DNA from: Jezberella montanilacus
GTDB lineage: Bacteria > Pseudomonadota > Gammaproteobacteria > Burkholderiales > Burkholderiaceae_B
Length of the DNA stretch: 64,000 nt
Assembly: GCF_003003055.1 (NCBI RefSeq)
Contig: NZ_PVTV01000017.1
Span: 1 to 64,000 of the forward strand
Direction: 5' to 3'
Shown: in pieces, positions 1,017-20,501 of the stretch
How the letters are laid out: each line of letters begins with the position of its first letter
How positions within the stretch are numbered: the stretch's first letter is position 1
The notes under the pieces: generated by a model
Told to the model about the DNA's origin: nothing
Databases searched by the model: none
What the model saw: only the letters and a program-made list of their open reading frames with translations
Made by a program: the position numbers and the translations under genes

Positions 1017-1457
1017 ATGACCGCACAATTTACCGAGGTACTGCATTACAAAGGTGAGCAGATGTCGCTGCGAACGCAACCTTTGTCGGAATATTTGTAT
1101 CTGATGGATACGACGCCTGATTTCAAGCGCAAGTCGACGGCCTGTTGGCGACGTTACGTCGGTAAATGGGAAATCCTTTTAGATCGTCTCTACTTAGTCG
1201 GGATTCACGCCACCTATACAGATGGTACTGCCGTCACCTTAGATAGTCTTTTCCCCGGCTTTCCAGAAAGGGTATTTGCGCACTGGTATTCAGGCGTATT
1301 GAGTATCCCTCAGGGAGCGATGACACAATATGTGCATATGGGCTACCTGAGCACTTACGAGCGGGATCTATTCATCGCCGTTGAAAATGGTGTGGTCGTA
1401 GACACGCAATTGCGCATCAATAATGTCTCGTTGGGCGAGGGTGACAACATTGCTTAA
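1017..1457 (+). CDS. Conserved hypothetical protein, 146 aa
   Basis: A soluble protein with no transmembrane segment, rich in aromatic residues (CWRRYVGKWEILLDRLYL near residues 43-60, FAHWYSG near 88-94). The pattern recalls small uncharacterised proteins found on proteobacterial islands, but I cannot assign a family with certainty. Its end overlaps the start region of the next gene, so the two are probably co-transcribed and translationally coupled. The start is ATG 1017. Confidence 0.6.
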   Translation: MTAQFTEVLHYKGEQMSLRTQPLSEYLYLMDTTPDFKRKSTACWRRYVGKWEILLDRLYLVGIHATYTDGTAVTLDSLFPGFPERVFAHWYSGVLSIPQGAMTQYVHMGYLSTYERDLFIAVENGVVVDTQLRINNVSLGEGDNIA

Positions 1458-2113: not shown

Positions 2114-3745
2114 TCAGAGGATGGTGGTCAAAAAACTAGCCGCCTGCTCGGTCAGCACAACTTCAACCGCCAGTTGTGCTCGGGTCAAGCCGACAAATAG
2201 TTTGCGTCGTGCTTTGTCGTCGAGTGTTCCAAAATCGATCTCCGTTAAGACAATGCCCGAGGCACTTTGACCTTTAAACCGGTAGACCGAGTCGACCAAC
2301 AGATCGCCAGTTGTCCAGATCGCATCGCCTGCAACCGAATACTTGCCTGTTGGTCGACGTAGCGTAAACGCACCCAATTGAGCGGTCTTGTTGAACTGCG
2401 AGTTAGTGAGGCCTTTCCAACTAATAATGGCGATATCGGCGAGGGCAATGCCGCGTTGCAATAAGTGTGTGACGGCTGCTTCGGTTTTAATTAGTAGGTC
2501 ACTGTCAGTCGTGTAGGTATAAAAATTAGGCAGTTCGCCGCGATAAAACGATCGCGATACGATGGGCTGTTCGGTCAAGCCTAGCGCATTAATCACCTTA
2601 CATACTGCTTTGGGTGTCCGAAAATTATCTAAGCAAGTGACGTTCACGACATCGCTGAGGTCGAACTCTTCTCTGTCGTAAAGCCTTTGCGCGTCGTCCT
2701 CAAGTAAATATATCTTGCCGTCATCGGTCAATTGGGGCAATAGGGCGGCCACCCAGGCCGGCTGAAAGTCTTGTCCCTCGTCAAGCACGATCAGTTGATA
2801 GCGCTTTTGCAGCTTGGGATCGGTCTCAACAGAGTCACAATATTGCGCGGCTAGCCGATCGTAATTGCCGGGGGCTGCGAAGTCAGGCTCACCCACTGTT
2901 TGTCGATAATGCTCGACGCAGAGTTCATGAAAACTTGCAACTTTAGCTTTGGTGGGTGCGATGTGACCAATGTGATCCGCCAGGCTGCGGTTGTAGCAAA
3001 CGTAGAGGCTAAGTTGGGATTTGTCAGCCGCATCTTGTAATAGTTTTAAGGCTAGTTGTGTTTTACCGGAACCGGCTGTGGCTTGTATTCGTATTAAGCC
3101 TGAGGGAGCAGATATGCGTGGTATCCACGTGGCCAGACCATCCGCTAAACGAAGTGTTGTAGTTCGGACTTGTTCACCCAAGACGCGCATATCCAGCGTG
3201 ACGTTAAATTCGTTACTAAAAAATCTTCTCAGGCTTTCAACGTCAACCCCAGAGTGCTCGGTCGCCATCATTTCTCTTGCGAGTGCCCCGAGTTGGTCGA
3301 ACCGGGTGGCATCAATAATGCGTTCTGGTGGTAGGGCAACGATTTGTTGGTTACCCATGACGTAATCCGGAAGGACGAGGCAATTTGTTACGTGAGTGTT
3401 TAATTTTGCTTTGCTTAGCCGATCGACCATTGCGGCAAACTGAATCTTGGTTTGTCGCCCAACATCGGTTGAACCGTCATGGTAGGCCTTAATCATTTGC
3501 CCATTGCCAATGGATACATCGCCAGCTTTGATTTCTACCAGTAAGACATTGCCGATGGGGGACAGCACCACGATATCAATTTCACCATGCTTGTCTCGGT
3601 CGTTATGCAGGGTGTGCCAGGAAACATTATGAAAGATCTCATAGCCGTCAGGCAAGGATGATTGCAGCCGATAAAGCACATCGAGCTCACGATCTCTGCC
3701 GCTGCGGTAGGTTGGTTTGGGGAGGTCAGGGACGAGGTGTGCCAT
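2114..3745 (-). CDS. NERD nuclease-related domain fused to an SF1 (UvrD-like) helicase
   Basis: The 543-residue protein starts with a NERD domain (about residues 15-120) carrying a PD-(D/E)XK-like core: D57 in EIDIVV, then E71-x-K73. An SF1 helicase core follows, with Walker A ATAGSGKT (222-229), motif II LDEGQDF (321-327), a motif V-like YRFKGQS (488-494) and motif VI VGLTRAQ (518-524). NERD-helicase fusions are known as DNA-processing proteins, often in defence islands; the substrate here is unknown. The gene is transcribed away from the WYL regulator gene, leaving 344 bases for two promoters. It is complete and has no accessory 2B domain of classical UvrD size. Confidence 0.85.
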   Translation of the reverse strand: MAHLVPDLPKPTYRSGRDRELDVLYRLQSSLPDGYEIFHNVSWHTLHNDRDKHGEIDIVVLSPIGNVLLVEIKAGDVSIGNGQMIKAYHDGSTDVGRQTKIQFAAMVDRLSKAKLNTHVTNCLVLPDYVMGNQQIVALPPERIIDATRFDQLGALAREMMATEHSGVDVESLRRFFSNEFNVTLDMRVLGEQVRTTTLRLADGLATWIPRISAPSGLIRIQATAGSGKTQLALKLLQDAADKSQLSLYVCYNRSLADHIGHIAPTKAKVASFHELCVEHYRQTVGEPDFAAPGNYDRLAAQYCDSVETDPKLQKRYQLIVLDEGQDFQPAWVAALLPQLTDDGKIYLLEDDAQRLYDREEFDLSDVVNVTCLDNFRTPKAVCKVINALGLTEQPIVSRSFYRGELPNFYTYTTDSDLLIKTEAAVTHLLQRGIALADIAIISWKGLTNSQFNKTAQLGAFTLRRPTGKYSVAGDAIWTTGDLLVDSVYRFKGQSASGIVLTEIDFGTLDDKARRKLFVGLTRAQLAVEVVLTEQAASFLTTIL

Positions 3746-4089
3746 GGGATTTCTGTAAAGTGGTCGCGATATTTAAGGATAGCCGTTTTGAGTGTCTCAT
3801 CCTATGAGTCACCTGTGAGGCGATTCGATACAAGGCCCTCAATCGTCGTCAATTTAAAGCGCTCGCCTGCCATGCCATACGGCTGTCATTTAGTCGGTCT
3901 GGCGATGACGGCGACCGTTACGGCAGAGCACAATACCGATGGTTTGCTTCAAGGTTTTTTAAAATAGTTACCGCTAGTGCTGCAAAAATAACATATAGTC
4001 AGTAGCATCTGGTGAGGCAGTAACTAACAATAATGACCCACAGGCGAGTCACTTCAGACAAACTCATGCCATCTGGCACGCGAGGATAA
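3746..4089 (+). other. Intergenic region between divergent NERD-helicase and WYL genes
   Basis: This 344-base stretch lies between two outward-facing genes and must hold both promoters. A 101-codon open frame covers part of it, but it overlaps the start of the helicase gene antisense, lacks a ribosome site and looks fortuitous. An AT-rich patch occurs at about 3950-3970, and the ribosome site GAGGA of the WYL gene lies at 4082-4086. I could not assign promoter boxes confidently. Confidence 0.4.
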
Positions 4090-5061
4090 ATGGATCGCAC
4101 AGAACGCTTCTATAAGATTCAAGCCATGCTGATGGCTAAACCCTCAGTCACAATGAAGCAAATGCAAGACACGCTTGAAGTATCGCGAGCGACGCTTAAT
4201 CGCGACTTAGCTTATATGCGTGATCGACTTGGTATCCCCTTCGCGTGGGATGCGGGCTTACGCGGTTATGCACTGACTCGGCAGCAGTCAGCGGATAAAA
4301 CGTTTGAATTGCCTGGCGTTTGGTTTAATCAGCAAGAGATCCATTCTTTACTCACTATGATTGAGCTGATCGCCAAGCTTGAACCAGGTGGGCTGCTGTT
4401 GCCGCATATTGAGCCCTTCAGGGCACGGCTAGAAGGATTGTTAGATCAAGGCGTTGGCGGCTCTAAAGAAGCAATGAATCGAATTCGAATTCTGCCTATG
4501 GCACAACGCCAAGTATCTAGTGACTATTTTCAATCAGTGACTCACGCCTTAGTGCAACGCAAACGCCTGGATATCAAGCACCACGCACGTCAGACCGGGC
4601 AGGATACTGATAGGCAGATATCCCCACAGCGGTTGGTGTACTACCGTGACAACTGGTATCTCGATGCCTATTGTCATCTGCGCGAAGATTTACGTAGCTT
4701 TTCTCTGGATGCCCTTAAAGGTGTGCACATCACTGAAAAAGCTGCCAAGAATGTCGACGAAGCCAAACTGCGTGAGGTGTTTGAAACAAGTTATGGCATT
4801 TTCTCAGGTAAGGATCATCACGTAGCCAAATTGAAGTTCACGCCCTTTAGAGCTCAGTGGGTTGCCCGCGAGGTCTGGCATCCAGAACAAGTCGGTAAAG
4901 TGGACGTCGACGGCAGTTACACACTTGAAGTCCCCTACGGTGAGGATTGGGAACTCATTCAAGACATTTTGCGTCAAGGCCCCGATGTTGAAGTATTAGC
5001 ACCAGCTGCACTAAAGAAGAAAGTCAAAGAGACCCTAAAACGCATGATGCGGCTTTATTGA
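4090..5061 (+). CDS. HTH-WYL domain transcriptional regulator
   Basis: Residues 1-65 form a DeoR-like winged helix-turn-helix (VTMKQMQDTLEVSRATLNRDL). A WYL domain spans about 145-215 with its name motif W189-Y190-L191 inside PQRLVYYRDNWYLDAYCH, and a WCX-type C-terminal domain spans about 245-320. Proteins of this layout bind DNA and sense a nucleic-acid ligand; several (CapW, BrxR) repress phage-defence operons. The gene sits between the NERD helicase and the DUF2130 gene, so it is the natural candidate regulator of the island. The palindromes upstream of the AAA+ gene are possible operators, which is inference only. Confidence 0.85.
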   Translation: MDRTERFYKIQAMLMAKPSVTMKQMQDTLEVSRATLNRDLAYMRDRLGIPFAWDAGLRGYALTRQQSADKTFELPGVWFNQQEIHSLLTMIELIAKLEPGGLLLPHIEPFRARLEGLLDQGVGGSKEAMNRIRILPMAQRQVSSDYFQSVTHALVQRKRLDIKHHARQTGQDTDRQISPQRLVYYRDNWYLDAYCHLREDLRSFSLDALKGVHITEKAAKNVDEAKLREVFETSYGIFSGKDHHVAKLKFTPFRAQWVAREVWHPEQVGKVDVDGSYTLEVPYGEDWELIQDILRQGPDVEVLAPAALKKKVKETLKRMMRLY

Positions 5062-5111
5062 GCGGTTCGGAAATTTATTGTTATCAATTTTTGATGGAGT
5101 AATTAGTCAAC

Positions 5112-6530
5112 ATGAATGAAATCAAATGCCCACATTGTGCTAAAGCTTTCAAGATCGATGAGGCTGGCTACGCGGATATCTTGAAACAAGTGCGGGACGA
5201 TGATTTCAACCATCAGTTGCACGAAAGACTCGAGCTGGCAGAGAAGAGTAAGCAGAGCGCCATTGAACTTGCCATGTCTCGAGCCGGTATAGAGTTGCAG
5301 AAAGCTGAGGTAGCTAAAGACAGCGTGATTCAAGACCTGAATGCTAAACTTGATGCAGCCCAATCGGCACAAAAGCTCGCCTTGGCAGAAGCCCTAAGCG
5401 CAGTCGAAAAACAACGTGACGAACTTACCTATAAGCTTGAGCAGGCTGCACTGGAGACGGCTACGGCGGTCCAGCTTGCTGAGGCAAAACGGGTAAGCGA
5501 ATTACAGCAGACTGCTGCAGCTAAGGATACCGAGATCCAAAGCCTGAGGGCTCAGCTTGGAACCCTCGAAATCAGGCAGAAGCTTGCCCTGACTGAGGCT
5601 ATTAGTGTGGTCGAAAAACAGCGCGACGAGGTGAGAAACAACCTCAAGCAGGCAGAGCTTGAAAAGCAACTGGTTGAACAAGCGTTAAAAAGTCAATACG
5701 AGACTCAGATCAAGGACCGAGATGACGCAATCGAACGTCTCAAGGACATGAAAGCGCGCTTATCAACGAAAATGGTAGGCGAAACGCTAGAACAGCATTG
5801 CGAAATCGAGTTCAACAAGATTCGCGCGACAGCGTTTCAGAGAGCCTATTTTGAGAAAGACAACGACACGCGTAGCGGCAGTAAAGGCGACTATATCTTT
5901 AAGGACTCTAATGAGGATGGGGTTGAAATTGTCTCGATCATGTTCGAAATGAAGAACGAGAGTGATCACACTGCTAATAAAAGTAAAAACGAAGATTTTC
6001 TTAAAGAGCTCGATAAAGATCGAAATGAGAAGGGTTGCGAGTATGCAGTCCTGGTCTCTATGCTAGAGGCCGAAAATGACCTCTACAACAGCGGGATCGT
6101 GGATGTGTCTCATCGCTATCCCAAGATGTATGTGGTGCGACCTCAGTTTTTTATCCCTATCATTACTCTGCTTCGTAATGCGGCGTTGAACTCACTGAAG
6201 TACAAGTCAGAGCTCGCCCAGATTAAGCTGCAAAGCATTGACATAACTAACTTTGAAACTGAGCTGAACAATTTCAAGACTGGATTTGCAAGAAATTACT
6301 CCCTCGCATCGAAGCACTTTGAGACCGCGATTTCGGAGATCGACAAGTCTATCGATCACTTGCAGAGAACAAAAGAAGCTTTACAAACAACGAGTAACCA
6401 CCTTCGTCTCGCGAATGATAAATCGCAGGCGGTAACAATCAAGAGACTCACGCGAGGTAATCCGACCATGACGCAGCGGTTTGCCGAATTACCTCCCGCA
6501 AATGAAAACCAGGACCCCGTTGACGATTGA
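5112..6530 (+). CDS. DUF2130 protein with N-terminal CxxC, coiled coil and nuclease-like domain
   Basis: The 472-residue protein opens with a zinc-ribbon-like C6-P-H-C9. A long coiled coil runs from about 30 to 215 and contains an internal repeat: residues 68-105 and 137-175 match closely around EKQRDE. The DUF2130 domain follows, with putative PD-(D/E)XK-like residues D260 (GSKGDYIF) and E279-M-K281 (MFEMKNE). DUF2130 proteins are predicted restriction-like nucleases often described as RmuC-like. The gene begins 50 bases after the WYL regulator on the same strand and is probably co-transcribed with it. Nuclease activity is inferred from motif layout, not known for this protein. Confidence 0.8.
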
Positions 6531-6633
6531 TTAATTTAGGTAGCATGCCTGCTTGCAAGTTCGTTTAACATTTTTTTCTCAGTCTCATCTAGTGATACAC
6601 CACTGGGCGCATAATGAGTTATCTCCCTCATCG

Positions 6634-6846
6634 ATGGCGCCCAACATGAACGAACCCCAAATCCCCAACGACGCACCTATCGTCTTTTTGTTGACGAAGG
6701 TAGAGATAAATTTGTCTGGCGTTGGGGGGCTTGAGCACCATCGGGCACATGATTCCGAGCTACTCTGGGCGATACTAGCAGCTATGGGTACATTGTCGAC
6801 CCTGCTCATTTTATCGACGTTTTATATTGCATCACGCTGGGGCTGA
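6634..6846 (+). CDS. Possible small membrane protein, about 70 aa
   Basis: An open frame from ATG 6634 (or ATG 6646) encodes a hydrophilic N-terminus and one clear hydrophobic segment near the C-terminus (LLWAILAAMGTLSTLLILSTFYIA). This is an orientation seen in small tail-anchored proteins. No convincing ribosome site precedes either ATG, and an antisense open frame covers the same bases, so it may be fortuitous. It lies between the DUF2130 gene and the AAA+ promoter. Confidence 0.3.
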   Translation: MAPNMNEPQIPNDAPIVFLLTKVEINLSGVGGLEHHRAHDSELLWAILAAMGTLSTLLILSTFYIASRWG

Positions 6847-6890
6847 AGCGGTAATCTTCCGTACTGATCAAGTAAGGAACCATTATTTGC

Positions 6891-6919
6891 TTGACAATTA
6901 AAGCTGTTTTTTGTACAAT
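6891..6919 (+). promoter_or_regulatory. Near-consensus sigma-70 promoter of the AAA+/DUF2779 gene set
   Basis: A -35 box TTGACA (6891-6896) and a -10 box TACAAT (6914-6919) are separated by exactly 17 bases, which is consensus apart from one position. It is the only strong promoter I find before the AAA+ gene and would give a leader of roughly 255 bases. The -35 box starts the 11-mer TTGACAATTAA, which also begins the two promoters in the 16.7-16.95 kb region. Confidence 0.75.
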
Positions 6920-6935
6920 TATTCTAATAAATTAT

Positions 6936-6948
6936 AACTTGTCAAGTT
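6936..6948 (+). promoter_or_regulatory. Palindrome just downstream of the promoter, candidate operator
   Basis: AACTTGTCAAGTT is a perfect 13-base palindrome centred about 20 bases after the -10 box. Its half CTTGACAA also appears as CTTGACAA at 6890-6897, overlapping the -35 box, so two related half-sites bracket the promoter. This is a typical place for a repressor site. The nearby WYL protein is the obvious candidate ligand, by inference. Confidence 0.45.
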
Positions 6949-7034
6949 AAAAATGTTACATATTTTTATGCGTAAATTTATGAATCCTTGGCAAGCAAAA
7001 TCAAGCATCCGCGTCAGGCACAAAGCCTGCATCG

Positions 7035-7132
7035 TCTTTTGAAACGTAACATTTTTCAAAAGAAATCCTGTCTTTTTAGGCATTAATCAACTTCCGCTTA
7101 GCGTTGCATTGCTGCAATCTTTTTAAAGATTG
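7035..7132 (+). promoter_or_regulatory. Structured leader of the AAA+ gene
   Basis: The leader contains a perfect 10-base-pair inverted repeat, TCTTTTGAAA (7035-7044) and TTTCAAAAGA (7054-7063), with a 9-base loop. A second inverted repeat, CAATCTTT (7115-7122) and AAAGATTG (7125-7132), has only two bases between its arms. No known riboswitch or leader-peptide pattern is recognised. The elements could be RNA hairpins controlling translation or protein-binding DNA palindromes. Confidence 0.45.
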
Positions 7133-7182
7133 ACGGCTTGTTGCATTCTTTTTTGCTTGTTAACTCACCTGAGGACAACATC

Positions 7183-9360
7183 ATGGCTACTCGTCGACGT
7201 AACAGTAAGTATTTTTTACAAACAACCGTAACTGCTACTGATATGGAGGATTTTTCGCCTGAGTTTGCCGATGCGTGTAAGCGTTGGGCATTACGAGCTT
7301 TGATCGACTTAGGTGGCCACGAGGGGATTGTTCAATCCAGTTTCTGCACTGAGCCTGGCCTCATGCGCGCACTGGGTCTTAATCAAGAGATGATCGAGAA
7401 CTACGAGCCTGAGCGCATGCTTGGTGCGCTTAAACAATTACACCGCGATGTCGTCAATCCAAAAACTGCTGACGAGTCTGGTAGCGCAGCAGCTGCTGCT
7501 AAGACGCTTTGTACACCGGACAGCGTCTTAATGCGCAATATTGACTGGTTAGGTAATCAAGTTTCGCTCACGTCAGATGAAAAGCAAATTTTGCTTCTGA
7601 GCGTTTTGGTGCGCCAAAATCCTTTTCTCGGGCAGGCCGTCGAAGCCTTGGGCTTCTTGTCAACGTCGCGTGCGAATTCTGTGTTGTCAGTACTACTTGA
7701 TATCTCTGTGCCTCGTGTGCTTCAGGCGCTATCGGAGGATTCAAGCTTGGTTCGGTCAGGTTTAATGTTTATCGACGACAGCGGCAATTTTGAGTTCAAT
7801 AATAAGGTCGTAATGCTGACGGGCTTAGATGGGCAATTAATGGTGGAGCAAAAAAATCTCTATTTTCTGTTTGCTTATAACTTTGTCGTGGCGCCCAAGC
7901 CCAAACTGACACTAGAGCAGTTTGACCACCTTGGGTCCAAGGTTAAGAATCTCAGTACTTTTCTGAGTGTTGCAGTGGCCGAAAAACAAAAGGGCGTCAA
8001 TATTCTTGTTTACGGTCCACCGGGCACAGGTAAAACCGAACTAGGTCGTGCATTAGCTAAAGAACTTAAGTTTCAGTTGTTTGAGGTTGCAGTAGAGGGC
8101 TGGCGAGGTAGCCACATCGCTGGTAAGGATCGCCTTGCTGGTTATCGGTTGTCTCAAATGATCTTGGCCAAGCGCAAAAACACTATGCTCGTTTTTGATG
8201 AGATTGAAGACATCACTCCACGAACAGAGGATGATGGTAATAGTCGCCGAGGCAATCGCTCTGGTCAAAAGGGTTTTCTCAATCAACTGTTGCAAGAGAA
8301 CCCAGTCCCAACGATCTGGATCACTAATAGCTTGCGTCCGCTGGATCCAGCTCATTTACGTCGGTTCGATTACTGCTTGTTGATGGATATCCCTCCCAAG
8401 AAAGTTCGTACCGCGATGTTGGCGGATTGTACAAAAGGGCTCGATGTTTCACTTGAGTGGTGCGAAAAAAAGGCCGCTAATGATGCGCTATCCCCAGCTG
8501 GTATGTCACGCGCCGCCAAGGTTGCGGGTGCGATGTTCAAAGGAGGAGCCAACACCTCTGTTGAAGCCTTGCTAGATGACGTCATTGATTCGGCGATGAA
8601 AGTTTTGTCAATTGACGCGCCACCTGCGAAAGCGAAAGCAGGTGCAGTCAAGTATCAGTTAGACGCCCTCAACGCAGACTGCGATCTAGGCGATGTTCTG
8701 GCGGGTCTGACCGAGACCGGGGAGGGACGCATTTGTTTATACGGGGTTCCCGGGACAGGTAAGTCGGCTTTTGCGAAGTACGTTGCTGACGTACTAGGTA
8801 AGCCAGCACTTATTAAACGTGCTTCAGATATCTTGGATCCTTATATTGGTCAGACCGAGTGCAATATGGCTGAGATGTTTTACCAAGCCGAGAAGGACGA
8901 TGCTGTGTTGATACTGGACGAAGCCGATAGTTTTCTGCGATCCCGCGAGGGCGCTAGGCGTGGTTGGGAAATAACAGCTGTCAACGAGATGCTCACCCAA
9001 ATGGAAGCATTTGGGGGCATCTTCTTTGCAACAACGAATTTGTTGGATCAACTTGATGCCGCTAGCTTGCGTCGTTTTGACATGAAGATCAATTTCGGAT
9101 TTCTCAAGCACGCTCAACGTCTCTCGTTGTGTCGCGAGGTGTGCAAATCAATTGGCTTGGAAATGTCATCCCGGGATGAGTCTCGCTTGGTCGAGCTAGA
9201 AAAGTTAACGCCAGGCGATTTTGAAAATGCCCTAAGGCAGTCTCGTCTGCGCCCCCTTCGCACGGTGGATGATTTGCTCAGTCGATTGAGTCAAGAGGTG
9301 AAGCTAAAAAATCTGAGCTCAGGGCGTCCAATCGGCTTTTTGGCGACCGGTACAGCCTAG
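7183..9360 (+). CDS. Tandem AAA+ ATPase, 725 aa
   Basis: Two complete AAA+ modules are visible. The first has Walker A GPPGTGKT (278-285), Walker B LVFDEIE (336-342) and RRFD (393-396). The second has Walker A GVPGTGKS (521-528), Walker B LILDEAD (576-582), sensor-1 ATTN (616-619) and RRFD (630-633). The N-terminal 270 residues are helical and unrecognised. The layout is that of Cdc48-like classic double AAA proteins, which remodel proteins or protein-DNA complexes. ATG 7183 is chosen because GAGGA lies seven bases upstream, although the frame is open to 7138. It leads a rightward set of four genes ending with the DUF2779 protein. Confidence 0.85.
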   Translation: MATRRRNSKYFLQTTVTATDMEDFSPEFADACKRWALRALIDLGGHEGIVQSSFCTEPGLMRALGLNQEMIENYEPERMLGALKQLHRDVVNPKTADESGSAAAAAKTLCTPDSVLMRNIDWLGNQVSLTSDEKQILLLSVLVRQNPFLGQAVEALGFLSTSRANSVLSVLLDISVPRVLQALSEDSSLVRSGLMFIDDSGNFEFNNKVVMLTGLDGQLMVEQKNLYFLFAYNFVVAPKPKLTLEQFDHLGSKVKNLSTFLSVAVAEKQKGVNILVYGPPGTGKTELGRALAKELKFQLFEVAVEGWRGSHIAGKDRLAGYRLSQMILAKRKNTMLVFDEIEDITPRTEDDGNSRRGNRSGQKGFLNQLLQENPVPTIWITNSLRPLDPAHLRRFDYCLLMDIPPKKVRTAMLADCTKGLDVSLEWCEKKAANDALSPAGMSRAAKVAGAMFKGGANTSVEALLDDVIDSAMKVLSIDAPPAKAKAGAVKYQLDALNADCDLGDVLAGLTETGEGRICLYGVPGTGKSAFAKYVADVLGKPALIKRASDILDPYIGQTECNMAEMFYQAEKDDAVLILDEADSFLRSREGARRGWEITAVNEMLTQMEAFGGIFFATTNLLDQLDAASLRRFDMKINFGFLKHAQRLSLCREVCKSIGLEMSSRDESRLVELEKLTPGDFENALRQSRLRPLRTVDDLLSRLSQEVKLKNLSSGRPIGFLATGTA

Positions 9361-9374
9361 GATGGTTAGTGATG

Positions 9375-9391
9375 GCGACAGAAATTGTCGC
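9375..9391 (+). repeat. Hairpin GCGACA-N5-TGTCGC before the 52-aa gene
   Basis: A six-base stem (9375-9380 with 9386-9391) with a five-base loop lies just after the AAA+ stop codon, in the leader of the next small gene. It has no following T-run, so it is not a normal terminator. An almost identical structure, with one more base pair, occurs at 14,254-14,272 before the propeller-like gene. Confidence 0.5.
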
Positions 9392-9457
9392 AACAATCCG
9401 TATCATTACTTTTCTCGCAGTTAGCTGTTTTTCCTTCAAACTTTTAAAGGATTTACT

Positions 9458-9616
9458 ATGCCTAAGCACAGCAATGTTTTGCCACTTGAGCAAGCTGGTC
9501 AAGGCCGTCAAAGCAGTTCATCCCGAGGACGCTTTTGCACACCCTATGTGCGCCTAGTAAAAGTAGGCCAACAAACAGTGGTTACGGCTGGCCGCCGAAA
9601 TCCACACGCGGCATAA
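9458..9616 (+). CDS. Small basic protein, 52 aa
   Basis: The frame begins at ATG 9458 behind a good ribosome site (AAAGGA, seven bases away) and ends TAA at 9614-9616. The product has a polar N-terminus with GRQSSSSRGRF and a C-terminal stretch VRLVKVGQQTVVTAGRRNP that looks like two beta strands. It is strongly basic and could bind nucleic acid or a partner protein. It lies between the AAA+ gene and another small gene in the same orientation. The family is not recognised; its reality rests on the ribosome site and context. Confidence 0.55.
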   Translation: MPKHSNVLPLEQAGQGRQSSSSRGRFCTPYVRLVKVGQQTVVTAGRRNPHAA

Positions 9617-9625
9617 AGTCAACGT

Positions 9626-9656
9626 GAAGGGATTCTGTAACTGTTGCAATCCCTTC
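9626..9656 (+). terminator. Hairpin between the two small genes, weak terminator or processing site
   Basis: GAAGGGATT (9626-9634) pairs perfectly with AATCCCTTC (9648-9656) around a 13-base loop. Only TTGCTT follows, so termination would be inefficient. It may attenuate transcription into the downstream 53-aa and DUF2779 genes, or stabilise a processed mRNA end. Confidence 0.4.
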
Positions 9657-9707
9657 TTGCTTCATCACGAAATTGCGTCAATTAACGATTCAACTTAGGA
9701 TAGCAAA

Positions 9708-9869
9708 ATGAAAGTTTACAAAGTGACTTACACAGCCTACGAAAAAGGCAGCTGCATGGTAGTGAGTGAAGGCGTCATGCCAGTCCACACAAGCTCGTCT
9801 TATGAAGCTGAGGAGACCGTAAAAGCAATGTTTAGTGGCCTAGAAGTGATAATCCGACATACAGACTAG
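9708..9869 (+). CDS. Small acidic protein, 53 aa
   Basis: ATG 9708 follows TTAGGATAG, an adequate ribosome site, and the frame ends TAG at 9867-9869. The sequence alternates hydrophobic and polar residues (MKVYKVTYTAYEKGSCMVV), then has a helix (YEAEETVKAMFSG) and a closing strand (LEVIIRH). That would suit a compact alpha/beta fold. The family is not recognised. It ends 54 bases before the DUF2779 gene and is likely co-transcribed with it. Confidence 0.55.
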   Translation: MKVYKVTYTAYEKGSCMVVSEGVMPVHTSSSYEAEETVKAMFSGLEVIIRHTD

Positions 9870-9923
9870 TGTCTATTGCAGTTGGGTTTAGTTTTTAAAT
9901 CTATTGATAAAAGGATTGACTTT

Positions 9924-11897
9924 ATGGCGAACCCTCGCTTTCTAACTAAGTCTCGCTTCAAACTGGCAGCAGAATGCCCGACCAAATTGTTCTACGCCAG
10001 CGAAAATAAGATATATCGAAGTCTTAAAAACGATGACAGTTTCTTGGCTATGCTTGCAGAGGGCGGTTTCCAGGTGGGCGAATTAGCTAAATGCTTCTAT
10101 CCGCACGGCGTCGAGGTGTCAGAAACTAGCAATGCTGAAGCCGTAGCTAAAACTAATGAACTTTTACAAGTCGAATCAATCGTGATTTTTGAAGCGGCGA
10201 TAGCATTTGAAAACCTGTTTATTCGTGTGGATATCCTCGTCAAGAACGGCAATCACTATGAATTGATTGAGGTCAAAGCTAAGTCGTACGATTCATACAA
10301 ACCCGACTTGGTTGGAACCAGGGGCGGCATAGTAAAAGGCATGCGTCCTTACATTGAAGATGTGGCCTTTCAATCTTATGTGTTTAAGCAGGCTTTTCCG
10401 CAAGCACAACTCGATAGTTTCTTGATGATGCCGGATAAGTCAGTGGCGGTCGACATCGACGGGTTAAATCAATACTTCAAACTAGTGCGTATGGACCAAC
10501 GCTCAAGAGTGATTGTGAATCCAGAGATCACTAATGTGGCTCTCGACCGTCGACTATTAGCGAAGGTCAATGTGGATAGTCTTGTTAATCGGGTGATGGA
10601 AGAGGGCGTGAGCACACCTCTGGGAATGGTGCCTGTAATTGACGCGATCAGACAATGGTCGCAAGCCTGTCTAGTCGGGGAAAAGATTGATCCTACGCCA
10701 GGTGGGCACTGCGGAAAATGTGAATTCAAGACTCGACCAGTCGATGTGCTAAGAAGTGGTTTGCACGAATGTTGGGCTGAAAAGTTCAACTTCACTCCTG
10801 AGGATTTCGCTAAAGGGACCGTGCTGGATTTATGGAACTTTCGCGGCAAGGATAGGATGATTAGCGAAGGCAGGGTTCGTATCCAAACCTTAGCCGAGCA
10901 TGATTTAAATATGAAAGACGGCGGCGAGATATTGAGTTGGACCGAGCGTCAGTGGATGCAAGCTCATGGGATCCCCAAGAATGAGGATAAGGGCGGCTTT
11001 TGGATAGCTGAAGCTCACATAAAGGCCGAAATGTCGAACTGGAAGTATCCCTATCATTTCATCGACTTTGAGACGAGTGCGGTGGCGATACCATTTCATA
11101 GAGGAATGAGGCCTTATGAACAAATCGCTTTTCAGTTTTCCCATCATATGATGCATGAAGACGGTCGCATTGAGCACGCGGGGCAGTTCTTACTAGCAGA
11201 GCCTGGTTTGTTTCCAAATTTTGAGTTCATCCGCGCATTAAAAGAAGAATTGGACAAAGACAACGGCACCGTATTTATGTGGAGCCATCATGAAAACACA
11301 ATATTGACGCGAATTGCCGAGCAACTTGAGAATTACTCAGATCGACCTTCTGACTGGGAAGCACTAAAAGCTTTTGCAGAGTCGCTACTTAAAACCGGCG
11401 ACCGCCCGATGTTTGACCTTTGTAAGTTGGCCACGGATGCGTATTATCACGTCGATACGAATGGACGCTCCTCTATTAAGATGGTCTTGCCTGCCGTGTT
11501 GAACTCAACGCCATCATTACAGGCTTTGTACGGCCGGCCAATTTATGGAGATGACACTGGTCGTTCTGATGGGATGCCGAGCCTGAATTACAAAAACTTT
11601 ACGTGGTGCAAAGCAACACCACAAGGGTCTGTCACGGACCCTTATGAACAGTTACGCCAATGGGGTAGTGAGCTACTTGGTGAAGAAGTGGCCGAAGGAG
11701 AAGATCCTGACGATCTTGTCATCGCCGAAGGCGGGGCTGCTGCCACTGCTTACCAACGGTTGCAGATGGAGAGTTTGTCGGCAATGACTCGCGACAAAAT
11801 CAAAAATGCCTTGCTCAGATATTGCGAGTTAGATACGCTTGCGATGGTAATGGTGGTGCAGGGATGGAACGCGTCGGTTCATCAGCAAATGTCTTAA
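9924..11897 (+). CDS. DUF2779 protein with Cas4-like nuclease head, 657 aa
   Basis: The N-terminal half resembles Cas4/RecB-type nucleases. It has an early cysteine C18 (AAECPTKLFY), D103 (RVDIL) and E116-V-K118 (ELIEVKAK) of a PD-(D/E)XK centre, then C263-x2-C266 (GHCGKCEF) and C283. These four cysteines are spaced like those that bind a 4Fe-4S cluster in Cas4 and AddB. The C-terminal half is DUF2779 and begins HFIDFET (D381, E383), resembling exonuclease motif I of DEDD proteins. ATG 9924 is chosen for the upstream AAAGGA. It is the last gene of the AAA+ set and probably acts on DNA or RNA ends. Both activities are motif-based inference. Confidence 0.8.
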   Translation: MANPRFLTKSRFKLAAECPTKLFYASENKIYRSLKNDDSFLAMLAEGGFQVGELAKCFYPHGVEVSETSNAEAVAKTNELLQVESIVIFEAAIAFENLFIRVDILVKNGNHYELIEVKAKSYDSYKPDLVGTRGGIVKGMRPYIEDVAFQSYVFKQAFPQAQLDSFLMMPDKSVAVDIDGLNQYFKLVRMDQRSRVIVNPEITNVALDRRLLAKVNVDSLVNRVMEEGVSTPLGMVPVIDAIRQWSQACLVGEKIDPTPGGHCGKCEFKTRPVDVLRSGLHECWAEKFNFTPEDFAKGTVLDLWNFRGKDRMISEGRVRIQTLAEHDLNMKDGGEILSWTERQWMQAHGIPKNEDKGGFWIAEAHIKAEMSNWKYPYHFIDFETSAVAIPFHRGMRPYEQIAFQFSHHMMHEDGRIEHAGQFLLAEPGLFPNFEFIRALKEELDKDNGTVFMWSHHENTILTRIAEQLENYSDRPSDWEALKAFAESLLKTGDRPMFDLCKLATDAYYHVDTNGRSSIKMVLPAVLNSTPSLQALYGRPIYGDDTGRSDGMPSLNYKNFTWCKATPQGSVTDPYEQLRQWGSELLGEEVAEGEDPDDLVIAEGGAAATAYQRLQMESLSAMTRDKIKNALLRYCELDTLAMVMVVQGWNASVHQQMS

Positions 11898-11934: not shown

Positions 11935-12032
11935 GGGGGTGCGGTGGAAAAGTTGGACTGGTTTATCCCGTAAGTCCGAGACTTTGTCGGCATTCTAAAG
12001 GACTGCATGATCCAAGGGATATATTGATACGC
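11935..12032 (-). repeat. IS3 remnant end, copy A of a direct repeat
   Basis: This segment matches 12,196-12,293 with about eight differences over 98 bases. It begins with GGGGGTGCGG followed by GGAAAAGTTGGACTGG, an IS3-style terminus. Read on the minus strand it encodes the last residues of an IS3 OrfB (SLGSCSPLECRQSLGL, then stop). It is the end of one decayed IS3 element whose remainder has been lost. Confidence 0.7.
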
Positions 12033-12177
12033 TTTTCAAGCTGACGCCGAGCTTCCCTAATCTAATCGCGTTGATCATCTGAGTTCGCCCAGAGGTTATG
12101 CCGACAAGAACGACTCTTTCCTTTGGATCGACGTATTCAACGGATACGTAGCAAACTTCAATATCGCCTTCAACCAC
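12033..12177 (-). pseudogene. Fragment of a host gene trapped between two IS3 ends
   Basis: On the minus strand an open frame reads VYVSVEYVDPKER-like sequence followed by VVLVGITSGRTQMINAIRL, then runs straight into IS3 copy A. The VGIT-x-GRTQ motif resembles a widespread uncharacterised family that I recall as uracil-DNA-glycosylase-like, but this is not certain. Only about 48 codons remain, so the gene was destroyed by the insertions. An overlapping minus-strand frame here has no coding character. Confidence 0.45.
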
Positions 12178-12195: not shown

Positions 12196-12293
12196 GGGGG
12201 TGCAGCGGAAAAGTTGGACTGGTTTATGCCGTAAGTCCAAGACTTTGTCGGTATTCTAAAGGACTGCATCATCCAAGGGATATCTTGATACGC
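12196..12293 (-). repeat. IS3 remnant end, copy B of a direct repeat
   Basis: This is the partner of the copy at 11,935-12,032, in the same orientation and 261 bases away. It forms the terminal part and OrfB C-terminus (EYRQSLGLTA, then stop) of the longer IS3 remnant to its right. Two same-facing ends imply two successive insertions or a tandem arrangement. Confidence 0.7.
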
Positions 12294-12717
12294 CTTTCGT
12301 TGTATCAATGAATATACGAATCAACGATCTGAATAAATTGCTCAATGGTTGTCGCCTGTCAGCTACGAGAGTAAAACAGCTATTTTTTCAGACGCCCAAA
12401 GAAGCCTTCACAAGCAGAGTTATCTGGTGAGCACCCTTTACGCGACATCGATCGAATTAGTTTGGCATCGCCCATCCGCGTTAACCAGCCTGGCCATCGA
12501 TAGTGAGCCCCGCGATCCGAATGGACGACCGGTTGATCACTATACTTTGCTACTATTTCGATGGTCGCATCCAGCATCGTGTTCACGTGATGGCGAGACG
12601 GACGTCTACACACTTGTCAGGGCCGCGCAGACGGGCCCAGTGATAAAAGTAAGAGCTGCAAGCAAGGCCAAGTTCGGCAAGGAGTTCTGGCACAGCATAC
12701 GTTTGTCTTAGGGCAGG
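12224..12717 (-). pseudogene. Decayed IS3-family transposase OrfB
   Basis: Minus-strand reading recovers an OrfB in pieces. An N-terminal piece (VPELLAELGLACSSYFYHW) comes first, then an internal deletion. A middle piece follows with HSDRGAHYRWPGW and SMSRKGCSPDNSACEGFFGRLK, the conserved IS3 catalytic-domain segment. The C-terminal piece is interrupted by a frameshift and three in-frame TGA codons, two of them where Trp is expected (RSW, IHW). It cannot encode an active transposase. Confidence 0.8.
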
Positions 12718-13946
12718 TCACGCTTGTGCCAAAGGCTTTGTATTAACTGTTCAACTGCCTGCTTTAAAACGTGGCGCTCAAGCATCGTGTTATGTCCGTT
12801 CTCTTGCGACAAATTCCCAACTGTCGTCGGCACATTTAAACCATAAGTTAAGTTAGTCCTAGTGCCATCCATCTGCACGTTAATGAATCGATGACCGTTT
12901 GTGTGAGCCTTAATAATGTTATTCATCAATTCTCGAATTATCCGCTGCCTCTGTGCGTCAGTCCTTTTCCTTTGACCCGAATGCACAACGCATCTATTGA
13001 AAGCCTCCCAATCTAGCCACACAAAAATCAATCCATGTTCCACACACCATTTAATCTTGGTTATGTGTTTGCACTGTATGTATTCCCAATTACCCTCATC
13101 CTTCGCTGGATAATGAAACGGACCTTGAATTTCAATGGCAATCTTAATGTTGTTCTCGAACAAGATTTGAAGGTCCAACTCCAGCCAGCTTCCATTATTG
13201 GAGATAGGTCTTTGTCCATGAAGTAGCCTGGGGGCGCCGTCCTGGCAGTTTGCATATATTGCGGCCAAGTCTCGATAAAGCACGGTCTCTGCCTGCGATT
13301 CACCAAACGTCCGAAGTTTCTCGCCCGCATCAAGATATTGAATTATGGACTTTACATAAAGAAGTATTTCTGTCGCTAATATACTACTTGGGCAAATTAC
13401 TAATTCTTGATTTAAATGTGCCTCGTCGACACCGAGAAATCTTCTCATACTGAGCATCGGTAGTCCACTGATCCAACCGAGCGGCGGACGGTTGTGATCT
13501 TGCACTCGCTCAATGTATAGAGTCTCTGAAAAGAGCTCAGCCTTAGGATGACGAATCTCCACGTTTACGTCATTGCTGACTACGCTCAAATTCAAAATAT
13601 CAAAGGATTGTTCCCCGTACTTTAGCTGTAAATATATGCAGCTCGTGTACAGTGGGTTACCTCCATTCCCAAAACCCTTGAGATGGCTTTTGTCTGCAGA
13701 CACACATATCCTTTCTGAAGATAAGCTATCTTTTATAAATTTGTAAAAAATCCACGCCGCAGCTAACCTACTCTCTAATTGCGTCACTCTAGCTTGATCG
13801 GGCTTTAGCTCCACTCGAGCGCCTTGACACTCCCATTCCTGCTGGTAACAATCTAACACAGAGGCGGGTGAAGCTGTTGATTCTGCGTGGTGCAGTTGAA
13901 ATTGCGCATACGAGTCATCTGTAAGATTTTGGTTATACCAGGCCAT
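12708..13946 (-). CDS. Predicted nuclease, 412 aa, C-terminus ending in an IS sequence
   Basis: Most of the protein is unrecognised. Residues about 250-315 (SWLELDLQILFENNIKIAIE, then QGPFHY and a lysine-rich helix, then GLIFVWL) follow the pattern of PD-(D/E)XK or Vsr-like endonucleases. Candidate catalytic residues are E256/D258, E272-x-Q274 and H278. The last residues DLP and the stop codon come from the IS3 end, so the natural C-terminus is probably lost. It may be a former defence or repair nuclease. Function is inferred from one motif region only. Confidence 0.55.
   Translation of the reverse strand: MAWYNQNLTDDSYAQFQLHHAESTASPASVLDCYQQEWECQGARVELKPDQARVTQLESRLAAAWIFYKFIKDSLSSERICVSADKSHLKGFGNGGNPLYTSCIYLQLKYGEQSFDILNLSVVSNDVNVEIRHPKAELFSETLYIERVQDHNRPPLGWISGLPMLSMRRFLGVDEAHLNQELVICPSSILATEILLYVKSIIQYLDAGEKLRTFGESQAETVLYRDLAAIYANCQDGAPRLLHGQRPISNNGSWLELDLQILFENNIKIAIEIQGPFHYPAKDEGNWEYIQCKHITKIKWCVEHGLIFVWLDWEAFNRCVVHSGQRKRTDAQRQRIIRELMNNIIKAHTNGHRFINVQMDGTRTNLTYGLNVPTTVGNLSQENGHNTMLERHVLKQAVEQLIQSLWHKRDLP
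12710..12720 (-). mobile_element. IS3 end identical to the end at the left edge
   Basis: TGACCTGCCCT reads leftward from 12,720, identical over 11 bases and in the same orientation as the IS end at 95-85. Immediately inside it lies the OrfB N-terminal fragment, so the original OrfA part is missing. The end supplies the last codons and stop of the nuclease gene to its right. Confidence 0.6.
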
Positions 13947-19853: not shown

Positions 19854-20501
19854 TCAGTTGATGGCGCTTTTTAATTCAAGCGCTTCAGCAGGACACTGCC
19901 TAATCAGCGCCGCTATGTCTGACGGGGTCCCTTTAAGCCAGGCCTCATAGCTGTCAGGATTCAAAATCACCACCATGCGTTTTTCGTCTTGTGGCTTGTG
20001 CAATAGCTTAAATATTGAATGGTCATTAGCGTTAACGGTCAGCATGGTGTAGCTCTCGACCCAGCCGGTAGGCGAACGCCACGCCGACCATAGTCCGGCA
20101 ATACCCATTGGCTCGCCATCAGCCCTCGATACTTCAGCCGCGACGGCCTTACCCGACCGCCAGTCTGGCTCAAACACAGATATCGCTGGGATGATGCAAC
20201 GTTGCGCTTTTCTCCAGGCATCTCTAAACGTAGGCTTTTCAGCAATCGTTTCGCTTCGAGCATTGAAAGTGCCACGGACTTTACCGTCCTTTGACCAGTG
20301 CGGGATTAAGCCCCAGTGGCCGGAGACGGCCTCGCGATCGGGGACAGCTTCATCGCCAACATCAGCGTGCGGGTGCGGGCGGATGAAAAGACCTTCATAG
20401 CCTGGCCACATGTCGGGCTTGCAAATGGTTGTCAGTGGCCCAAGCCCAAAGATGTTGCGTAACTGATTGATATGAGTGACAGGTTTGTAGTGGCTACACA
20501 T
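19854..20501 (-). CDS. yedK: SOS response-associated peptidase (SRAP, YedK/HMCES)
   Basis: The initiator Met is followed by Cys2, the residue that, after Met removal, forms a thiazolidine crosslink to abasic sites in single-stranded DNA. Other SRAP landmarks are present: FNARSE (79-84), E111 in the VFEPDW stretch, and LLHKPQDEKRMVVIL (167-181), the His-containing active-site loop. Length (215 aa) is normal. It protects abasic sites during replication. The first 30 codons are duplicated upstream at 21,463-21,551, beyond a toxin-antitoxin cassette. Confidence 0.9.
   Translation of the reverse strand: MCSHYKPVTHINQLRNIFGLGPLTTICKPDMWPGYEGLFIRPHPHADVGDEAVPDREAVSGHWGLIPHWSKDGKVRGTFNARSETIAEKPTFRDAWRKAQRCIIPAISVFEPDWRSGKAVAAEVSRADGEPMGIAGLWSAWRSPTGWVESYTMLTVNANDHSIFKLLHKPQDEKRMVVILNPDSYEAWLKGTPSDIAALIRQCPAEALELKSAIN
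20413..20501 (-). repeat. Direct repeat flanking the MNT-HEPN cassette, copy in intact yedK
   Basis: These 89 bases (first 30 codons of yedK) match 21,463-21,551 at all but about four positions, in the same orientation and exactly 1,050 bases apart. Sequence on either side is unrelated. Confidence 0.85.

Follow-up and report, generated by a model that had tools for sequence, protein, structure and literature searches.

ATPase-plus-nuclease pairs are a known kind of defence module, and the locus considered here may add another. In the IetAS system, the IetA protein is accompanied by an adjacent subtilisin-like protease, IetS. Cas4-like nucleases are recognized by one N-terminal and three later cysteines together with a D, E-x-K, Q motif, and 3'-5' exonucleases of the DEDD type by D-x-E, a third acid and YxxxD; RecB/Cas4 and DEDD types are both common in DNA repair. 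The two kinds of domain meet in the DUF2779 family (PF11074) and in COG2251, for both of which PMC3985635 describes a PD-(D/E)XK-like DUF83 nuclease domain combined with an RNase H-like 3'-5' exonuclease domain; among RNase H-like proteins, that paper assigns DUF2779 to the 3'-5' exonuclease clade. Auxiliary nucleases recruited by BREX loci are treated in passages of PMC12839542. In Jezberella montanilacus, a gene for a DUF2779 protein lies downstream of one for a tandem AAA+ ATPase, here termed AAA2, within the first 64,000 nucleotides of contig NZ_PVTV01000017.1 (assembly GCF_003003055.1), the stretch referred to below as the window; since the window begins at base 1 of this contig (C7), its left side is out of view. 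AAA2 and DUF2779 genes form a real and recurrent association. The reading favoured here, with a probability of about one half, is that in the window they constitute a defence module in which AAA2 licenses an exchangeable effector, and that this module is carried in an interval of variable content flanked by two resident genes of the genus.

The association is evident in two samples. Among 399 genomes of the order, apparently the same draw for both searches, a profile built from 12 AAA2 proteins (E <= 1e-60) finds AAA2 in 37 and PF11074 (E <= 0.001) finds DUF2779 in 44; 16 hold both, against 4.1 expected (hypergeometric p 8e-8). The two genes lie within ~10 kb of each other in 12 of these 16 (G000, G126, G127, G246, G278, G296, G312, G315, G382, G387, G423 and G450; at 7-10 kb in G126, G315 and G387) and on different contigs in G202, G225, G285 and G311. 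Among 369 genomes of the class, a few of them shared with the order sample, AAA2 occurs in 25, DUF2779 in 24 and both in seven, against 1.6 expected (p 4e-4); six of the seven have them within 10 kb (G000, G529, G674, G682, G708 and G762), or five without the own genome, which is counted in both samples, and in G573 they are on different contigs. Both p-values assume independent genomes, and these genomes are not phylogenetically independent. No DUF2779 match was found in 14 control genomes. A sequence-only reading of this DNA had proposed conserved co-occurrence as a check, and for the two large genes it is borne out in many genomes.

Seven loci (L024, L025, L033, L114, L141, L142 and L143, with L114, L142 and L143 from one genus) carry AAA2 followed on the same strand by DUF2779 at a distance of -34 to 107 bp, and in L024, L025, L142 and L143 a WYL gene comes directly after the run; in L148, L149, L174 and L328 the two genes are divergent. 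On both family trees, quick searches with some long branches, the linkage is scattered and was not inherited once. AAA2 linkage marks 16 of the 60 rows of the DUF2779 tree with 9 changes, and DUF2779 linkage 17 of the 69 rows of the AAA2 tree with 12 changes. The former tree omits proteins under 300 residues, L250 (in two frames) and the DUF2779 gene of L328, the latter proteins under 450 residues and viral AAA2 (L252-L255). The AAA2 loci taken in include L031-L054 out of 80 in one set, L252-L259 out of 30 in another, and 15 of 17 matched plasmid records.

Open reading frames (ORFs) and domain searches show all five large genes named by the sequence-only reading to be present and intact where it had put them, the double AAA+ protein and the Cas4-like/DUF2779 protein included (Table 1). 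From the sequence and alignment with relatives, AAA2 most likely starts at ATG 7183 and the DUF2779 gene at ATG 9924. In AAA2, neither AAA+ module has lost its Walker A, Walker B or paired arginines, as a double AAA+ protein should not. The 50 listed Protein Data Bank (PDB) matches of its structural model are p97, Cdc48, Rix7, NVL and DRG1 (E 8e-19 to 1e-16), and the model is best read as a Cdc48-like double-ring AAA+ ATPase. The second ring contains YIG (W/Y-V-G in many relatives), which we read as occupying the pore-loop position of such enzymes; this aromatic, pore-loop-like element suggests that AAA2 may pull on protein.

The DUF2779 protein is a member of its family by PF11074 (88 bits against a gathering score of 23). 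Residues C18, C263, C266, C283, D103, E116, K118 and Q150 are kept in 17-18 of 18 long and 41-42 of 42 short aligned rows, and D381, E383, E457, Y633 and D637 in 17-18 of the 18 long rows; D498, like the other listed residues, is kept in nearly all 60. The residue patterns of both Cas4-like and DEDD nucleases are present, with E457 as the probable third acid of the DEDD set, and the protein is best read as a predicted Cas4-like, four-cysteine PD-(D/E)XK domain joined to a DEDD-type exonuclease domain of RNase H fold. Its structural model, of only moderate quality (predicted local distance difference test, pLDDT, 70), has as best Foldseek match the Cas4/Cas1/Cas2 structure 7mi4 (E 0.014, probability 0.87), and HincII and spliceosomal proteins reach similar E-values; a profile of the family found 0 matches among PDB sequences. 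Its tree comprises a long clade of 18 rows (support 100), to which the window's protein belongs and of which L030 is a shortened member, and 42 shorter rows.

The AAA2/DUF2779 pairing goes unnamed by every model applied from PADLOC 2023, NCBIfam and Pfam, in keeping with the sequence-only reading, which had matched its larger set of genes to no named system. The PADLOC run it recommended returned nothing for the DUF2779 protein, for which NCBIfam gives only UU173_fam (18 bits against a cut-off of 225), and the matches of AAA2 in both collections are partial or generic, the best being IetA/IteA over the second module (PADLOC 6e-37; NCBIfam IteA 5e-35). AAA2 differs from IetA in having two AAA+ modules and an N-terminal region, and its 121 bits fall far below the IteA cut-off of 510; no subtilisin-like partner of the IetS type appears in the matches listed for the ten proteins of the window that were scanned. 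With Cdc48/p97, Rix7 and NVL it shares the double AAA+ fold at 17-23% identity in the listed matches, whose alignments fall short of the whole protein, and its 75 bits against the CDC48 cut-off of 803 do not make it a Cdc48 orthologue. Among RecB-like nucleases of the TM0106/COG2251 kind, a TM0106 gene is likewise found close to AAA2 in L023 and L328; that of L023 carries its own SF1-type helicase part, unlike the window's DUF2779 protein. The passages on the family in PMC3985635 do not mention a pairing with AAA2, and PMC12839542, on BREX-associated nucleases, is not one of the six papers in the literature searched that contain the word DUF2779. The module is likewise absent from the passages of PMC3985635, PMC12839542 and PMC4012209 and from the literature searched, which was mostly titles and abstract openings and the best matches of longer lists, with preprints and most subscription papers outside it.

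DUF2779 is one of several genes that may directly follow AAA2. The same slot holds a Sir2 gene on the same strand in L022, GIY-YIG genes in L173 (4e-10) and L174 (only 8e-4, under the cut-off), GmrSD in L176 (3e-18), a TPR gene in L163, a metallophosphatase-like protein in L252 and, under the cut-off, a PcfJ-like protein in L157 and PDDEXK_4 in L028; a MavL-type macrodomain protein lies beside a short AAA2 piece in L054, and the neighbours in L031, L172 and L156 have no Pfam match. On plasmids, the Alphaproteobacterial and Desulfosarcina records L326, L327, L329 and L331 have AAA2 with WYL and PD-(D/E)XK, ADP-ribosylglycohydrolase, HEPN, UvrD or helicase genes, and L328 has it with WYL and a divergent DUF2779; L332 shows no such partner beside AAA2, only a helicase-domain gene divergently upstream, and L325 and L330 carry no annotation. 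WYL genes are frequent companions. A WYL protein clustering with that of the window lies within 7 kb of AAA2 in 28 of 64 loci, window included (first gene caller), and a WYL gene within 3 kb of 23 of the 60 DUF2779 rows. The window's WYL protein is 76-84% identical to four genus copies and 41-53% to those of L157, L163 and L215. Two of these loci, L157 and L163, contain AAA2 as well (in L157 the WYL gene, 53% identical and of the same subfamily, is ~4.5 kb away from it); the remaining five of the best 12 of 17 matches are at ~20-24%.

The surroundings of AAA2 are often of defence type. BREX-2 genes occur among them, L024 holds the PADLOC candidates PDC-M27A/B, and several loci have BREX, GmrSD, Sir2, HEPN or HipA genes as neighbours. 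For long DUF2779 genes, the defence-type company consists of PglZ/BrxL genes in L246 and L251 and, in L249, of an Mrr-type restriction gene on the side opposite SbcCD-like genes. In L027, L150, L331 and L024, AAA2 is accompanied by a run of a ~400-470-residue protein, a ~650-residue protein and a large helicase; the first two match PDC-M27A and PDC-M27B in L024, and in L027 only the helicase matches, weakly, PDC-M27C. A gene for an FtsZ/tubulin-like GTPase, one protein cluster identified by Pfam in L024 and L148, is next or close to AAA2 in L024, L148, L149 and L153.

A defence role for AAA2 and DUF2779 is likely. Several findings nevertheless weigh against their forming one module with AAA2 as its licensing part. 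The defence context of AAA2 consists of observations in individual loci, and the genes directly after AAA2 also include a secretion ATPase (L052) and an esterase-like protein (L177), which do not resemble effectors. Many AAA2 genes have no linked nuclease, and one AAA2 clade of 12 rows has neither WYL within 3 kb nor DUF2779 within 8 kb. The AAA2 model (pLDDT 81) has a predicted template modelling score (pTM) of 0.58, which leaves its overall arrangement uncertain, and the Foldseek matches of the DUF2779 model (Cas4, MGME1, AddAB and RNase T among others) are weak, all with E >0.01. On the DUF2779 tree, 15 of the 42 short rows have AAA2 within 8 kb, against only 1 of the 18 long ones, the window itself; being the sole long-clade row with AAA2 nearby, the exact pair in the window could be chance neighbours in a defence island. 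Its 563-bp gap compares with -34 to 107 bp in the contiguous runs.

The clade distribution and the gap speak for the strongest alternative, that AAA2 and the long DUF2779 gene are separate defence genes resident in one hotspot, the nuclease acting alone or as an accessory to PglZ/BrxL-type systems absent here, and AAA2 having had another partner. Indeed, the closest relative of the window's DUF2779 protein (L246, 61% identical, on a viral contig) follows an uncharacterised 414-residue gene, an HSP70-like gene, PglZ (977 bits in PADLOC, yet under the Pfam cut-off) and BrxL, and in L251 a long DUF2779 gene has WYL on one side and, on the other, a weakly PglZ-like gene plus BrxL. This account has to reckon with the repeated linkage of AAA2 to the sister short clade, with a strand and gene order in the window like those of the contiguous runs, and with an own genome in which neither PglZ nor BrxL finds a match, a result on which membership in BREX is also rejected. 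Such co-residence is a serious competitor, though we would not give it an even chance; that AAA2 took up a nuclease of the other lineage is somewhat ahead of a chance neighbourhood of two defence genes.

It is unlikely that AAA2 and the nuclease instead form a DNA-repair or plasmid-maintenance module that processes damaged or replicating DNA rather than phage. The nuclease types would suit such a role, the gene at the right edge of the interval encodes an SRAP (SOS-response-associated) protein, AAA2 has FtsZ-like and TPR genes among its neighbours, and SbcCD-like genes lie beside the long DUF2779 gene of L249. The distribution is patchy (37 and 44 of 399 genomes, and none of the 14 controls for DUF2779), however, and the BREX, GmrSD, Sir2, HEPN and HipA neighbours in several loci point elsewhere.

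A survey of 32 genomes of the genus, some incomplete, separates the genes of the window into two groups. The WYL gene occurs in 23 (the window's protein being 65-86% identical to its best match in each of the other 22) and DUF2130 in 16, the two sharing a contig ~15 to 42 kb apart in G004, G021 and G030. WYL regions were read in all 22 other WYL genomes, as 18 regions, several cut by contig ends, plus L174, L241, L242 and L243. In nine of the 18, WYL has a divergently oriented NERD helicase (72-77% identical) beside it, separated by no more than two small ORFs; none of the other four has the helicase directly beside WYL (9 of 22 in total). SRAP is near WYL in six of the 18 and in L241 and L242. 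By comparison, AAA2 (E <= 1e-30) is found in only two of the 32 genomes, the own one and G023, and the long DUF2779 gene in two, the own one and G003. The NERD helicase, WYL and DUF2130 genes are genus residents; AAA2 and the long DUF2779 gene are accessory cargo. As a side observation, L234 has a long DUF2779 gene with a DUF2130 gene ~1.7 kb away; the latter shares 62% identity with that of the window and is the only other DUF2130 match among the loci annotated.

The cargo sits between resident genes whose order, NERD helicase (-), WYL (+), SRAP (-), is that of the relatives. In the window, almost 15 kb separates WYL from SRAP, a stretch that contains DUF2130, AAA2, DUF2779 and other genes. 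Relatives have nothing there (L308, L311), between one and three small ORFs (L309, L310, L312, L324) or, in L242, a short DUF2779 gene 11 bp from WYL. Since its contents differ between relatives, the interval is variable. Its part from 14 to 19.8 kb may be of other origin. Among the relatives' genes beyond SRAP, no match to the window was seen except common receptor genes of the Bug type, which makes a rearrangement possible as well. In G023 (L174), 1.6 kb separates AAA2 from the resident WYL gene, against 2.1 kb in the window, yet the two AAA2 proteins are only ~30% identical; two explanations offer themselves, a hotspot at this site or an importance of WYL for AAA2. Seven further genus genomes have short DUF2779 genes; those of L243, L244 and L245 are 108-1031 bp away from a NERD helicase that shares 62-64% identity with the window's. 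The parts are shuffled within the genus, and the window's set is not a fixed one.

The sequence-only reading had joined the NERD helicase, WYL, DUF2130, AAA2, two tiny proteins and DUF2779 into one functional unit, a proposal that fits their lying within 10 kb with the last genes on one strand, the closeness of WYL to DUF2779 (L242 among others) and to AAA2 (L174) and of NERD helicases to short DUF2779 genes, but that is now very improbable, and is rejected as a six-gene unit, because the helicase (9/22 beside WYL), WYL (23/32) and DUF2130 (16/32) are residents mostly without AAA2 or long DUF2779, the tiny ORFs are unconserved and the WYL-type palindrome described below is not found before AAA2. 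What stands of it is the AAA2/DUF2779 association, with WYL and defence-type genes often nearby; DUF2130 is not a conserved partner.

Table 1. Position and assignment of the main features in the window.
Feature	Position	Strand	Remarks
NERD + UvrD-type SF1 helicase	2114-3745	-	PF08378 8e-10, PF13538 8e-9; divergent from WYL; genus-resident
WYL/WCX regulator	4090-5061	+	1e-18; genus-resident, left edge of variable interval
DUF2130 coiled-coil protein	5112-6530	+	PF09903, 5e-90; genus-resident, not a conserved partner
Promoter-like site (6891-6919) within inverted repeat	6890-6946	+	~264 bp upstream of AAA2; candidate operator
AAA2, tandem AAA+ ATPase, ~725 aa, helical N-terminal region	7183-9360	+	PF00004 1e-44, two stretches; accessory
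Gap between AAA2 and DUF2779, 563 bp	9361-9923	+	two tiny ORFs, 9458-9616 and 9708-9869
DUF2779 protein, long form, 657 aa	9924-11897	+	PF11074 6e-25; accessory cargo
SRAP (YedK-like) gene	19854-20501	-	PF02586 5e-37; right edge of WYL-SRAP interval

The promoter described as strong does match 11 of 12 consensus positions; such sites overall are no commoner in the window than in shuffled sequence (13 against 10.5, standard deviation 3.5). It is enclosed by an 8-bp inverted repeat found by eye, CTTGACAA/TTGTCAAG at 6890-6897 and 6939-6946. A palindrome like TATCACCTGGTGAGCCA stands ~70-120 bp before WYL in about half of 20 aligned upstream stretches from the genus and is a candidate WYL operator; in the window it is degenerate (4003-4019). 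It was looked for upstream of AAA2 and not found, and control of AAA2 by WYL through a shared operator is rejected. The two tiny ORFs, both open, have no match among 72,556 plasmid records and no convincing one within the AAA2/DUF2779 loci collected; the 53-residue ORF matched only its own genome among the 32 of the genus, where the 52-residue ORF was not searched. With no relatives in the searches made, they are not conserved partners, contrary to the earlier suggestion.

The insertion sequence (IS) remnants said to bracket the genes shrink on inspection to an HTH_29 match just under the cut-off, with HTH_32 weaker still, in ORF 93-401, and to an rve match of E 0.03, the only one, in ORF 12380-12613; IS flanks are at best weakly indicated. 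An island borne by a tRNA gene or set between flanking repeats finds no backing: no tRNA gene lies within the window, and between 4900 and 20600 the settings used reveal no repeats other than two short inverted pairs and a local direct repeat of 103 nt. The direct repeat, 92% identical, lies directly downstream of the DUF2779 gene (11935-12037 and 12196-12298). Beyond it, 12708-13946 (-) encodes a 412-residue protein with no Pfam or PADLOC match and a weak NCBIfam match to a RecX model; its E-x-Q stretch and late W-L-D-W-E look by eye like a Vsr-type PD-(D/E)XK nuclease. At the other end, 1017-1457 (+) encodes a 146-residue protein without Pfam match, whose relatives share loci with AAA2 and a same-subfamily WYL gene in L157 (54% identity) and L174 (34%).

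Taken together, the genes and their intact motifs, the recurrent linkage of AAA2 and DUF2779, the other effector-type genes in the same slot and the defence-type neighbours are the ground on which we infer that in the window the two are co-expressed and are physical partners, with a trigger, DNA as target and defence as outcome. In the favoured module, AAA2 would recognise or remodel a protein of the phage or of a phage-DNA complex, and its action would release or load the partner nuclease; the DUF2779 protein would then cut DNA with its Cas4-type PD-(D/E)XK domain, and its DEDD 3'-5' exonuclease domain would degrade the cut DNA further. More tentatively, and with the odds rather against it, AAA2 could form the constant centre of a modular defence family, as yet undescribed, found mainly in Proteobacteria and often with WYL, that senses infection and drives a swappable effector, for which Cas4-DEDD nuclease, GIY-YIG, GmrSD, PD-(D/E)XK and Sir2 proteins are candidates; the window would then show a change from short to long DUF2779. 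On the reading preferred here, the pair falls in the known ATPase-plus-nuclease kind of defence module.

The case shows how surveying a genus can tell resident genes and cargo apart in what was supposed to be a defence operon. If the favoured reading is true, it would add a candidate defence ATPase with swappable effectors and give a function to DUF2779, a nuclease family seldom mentioned in print. It also raises a testable question, namely whether a protein-remodelling AAA+ ring can serve as the gate of a Cas4-type nuclease.

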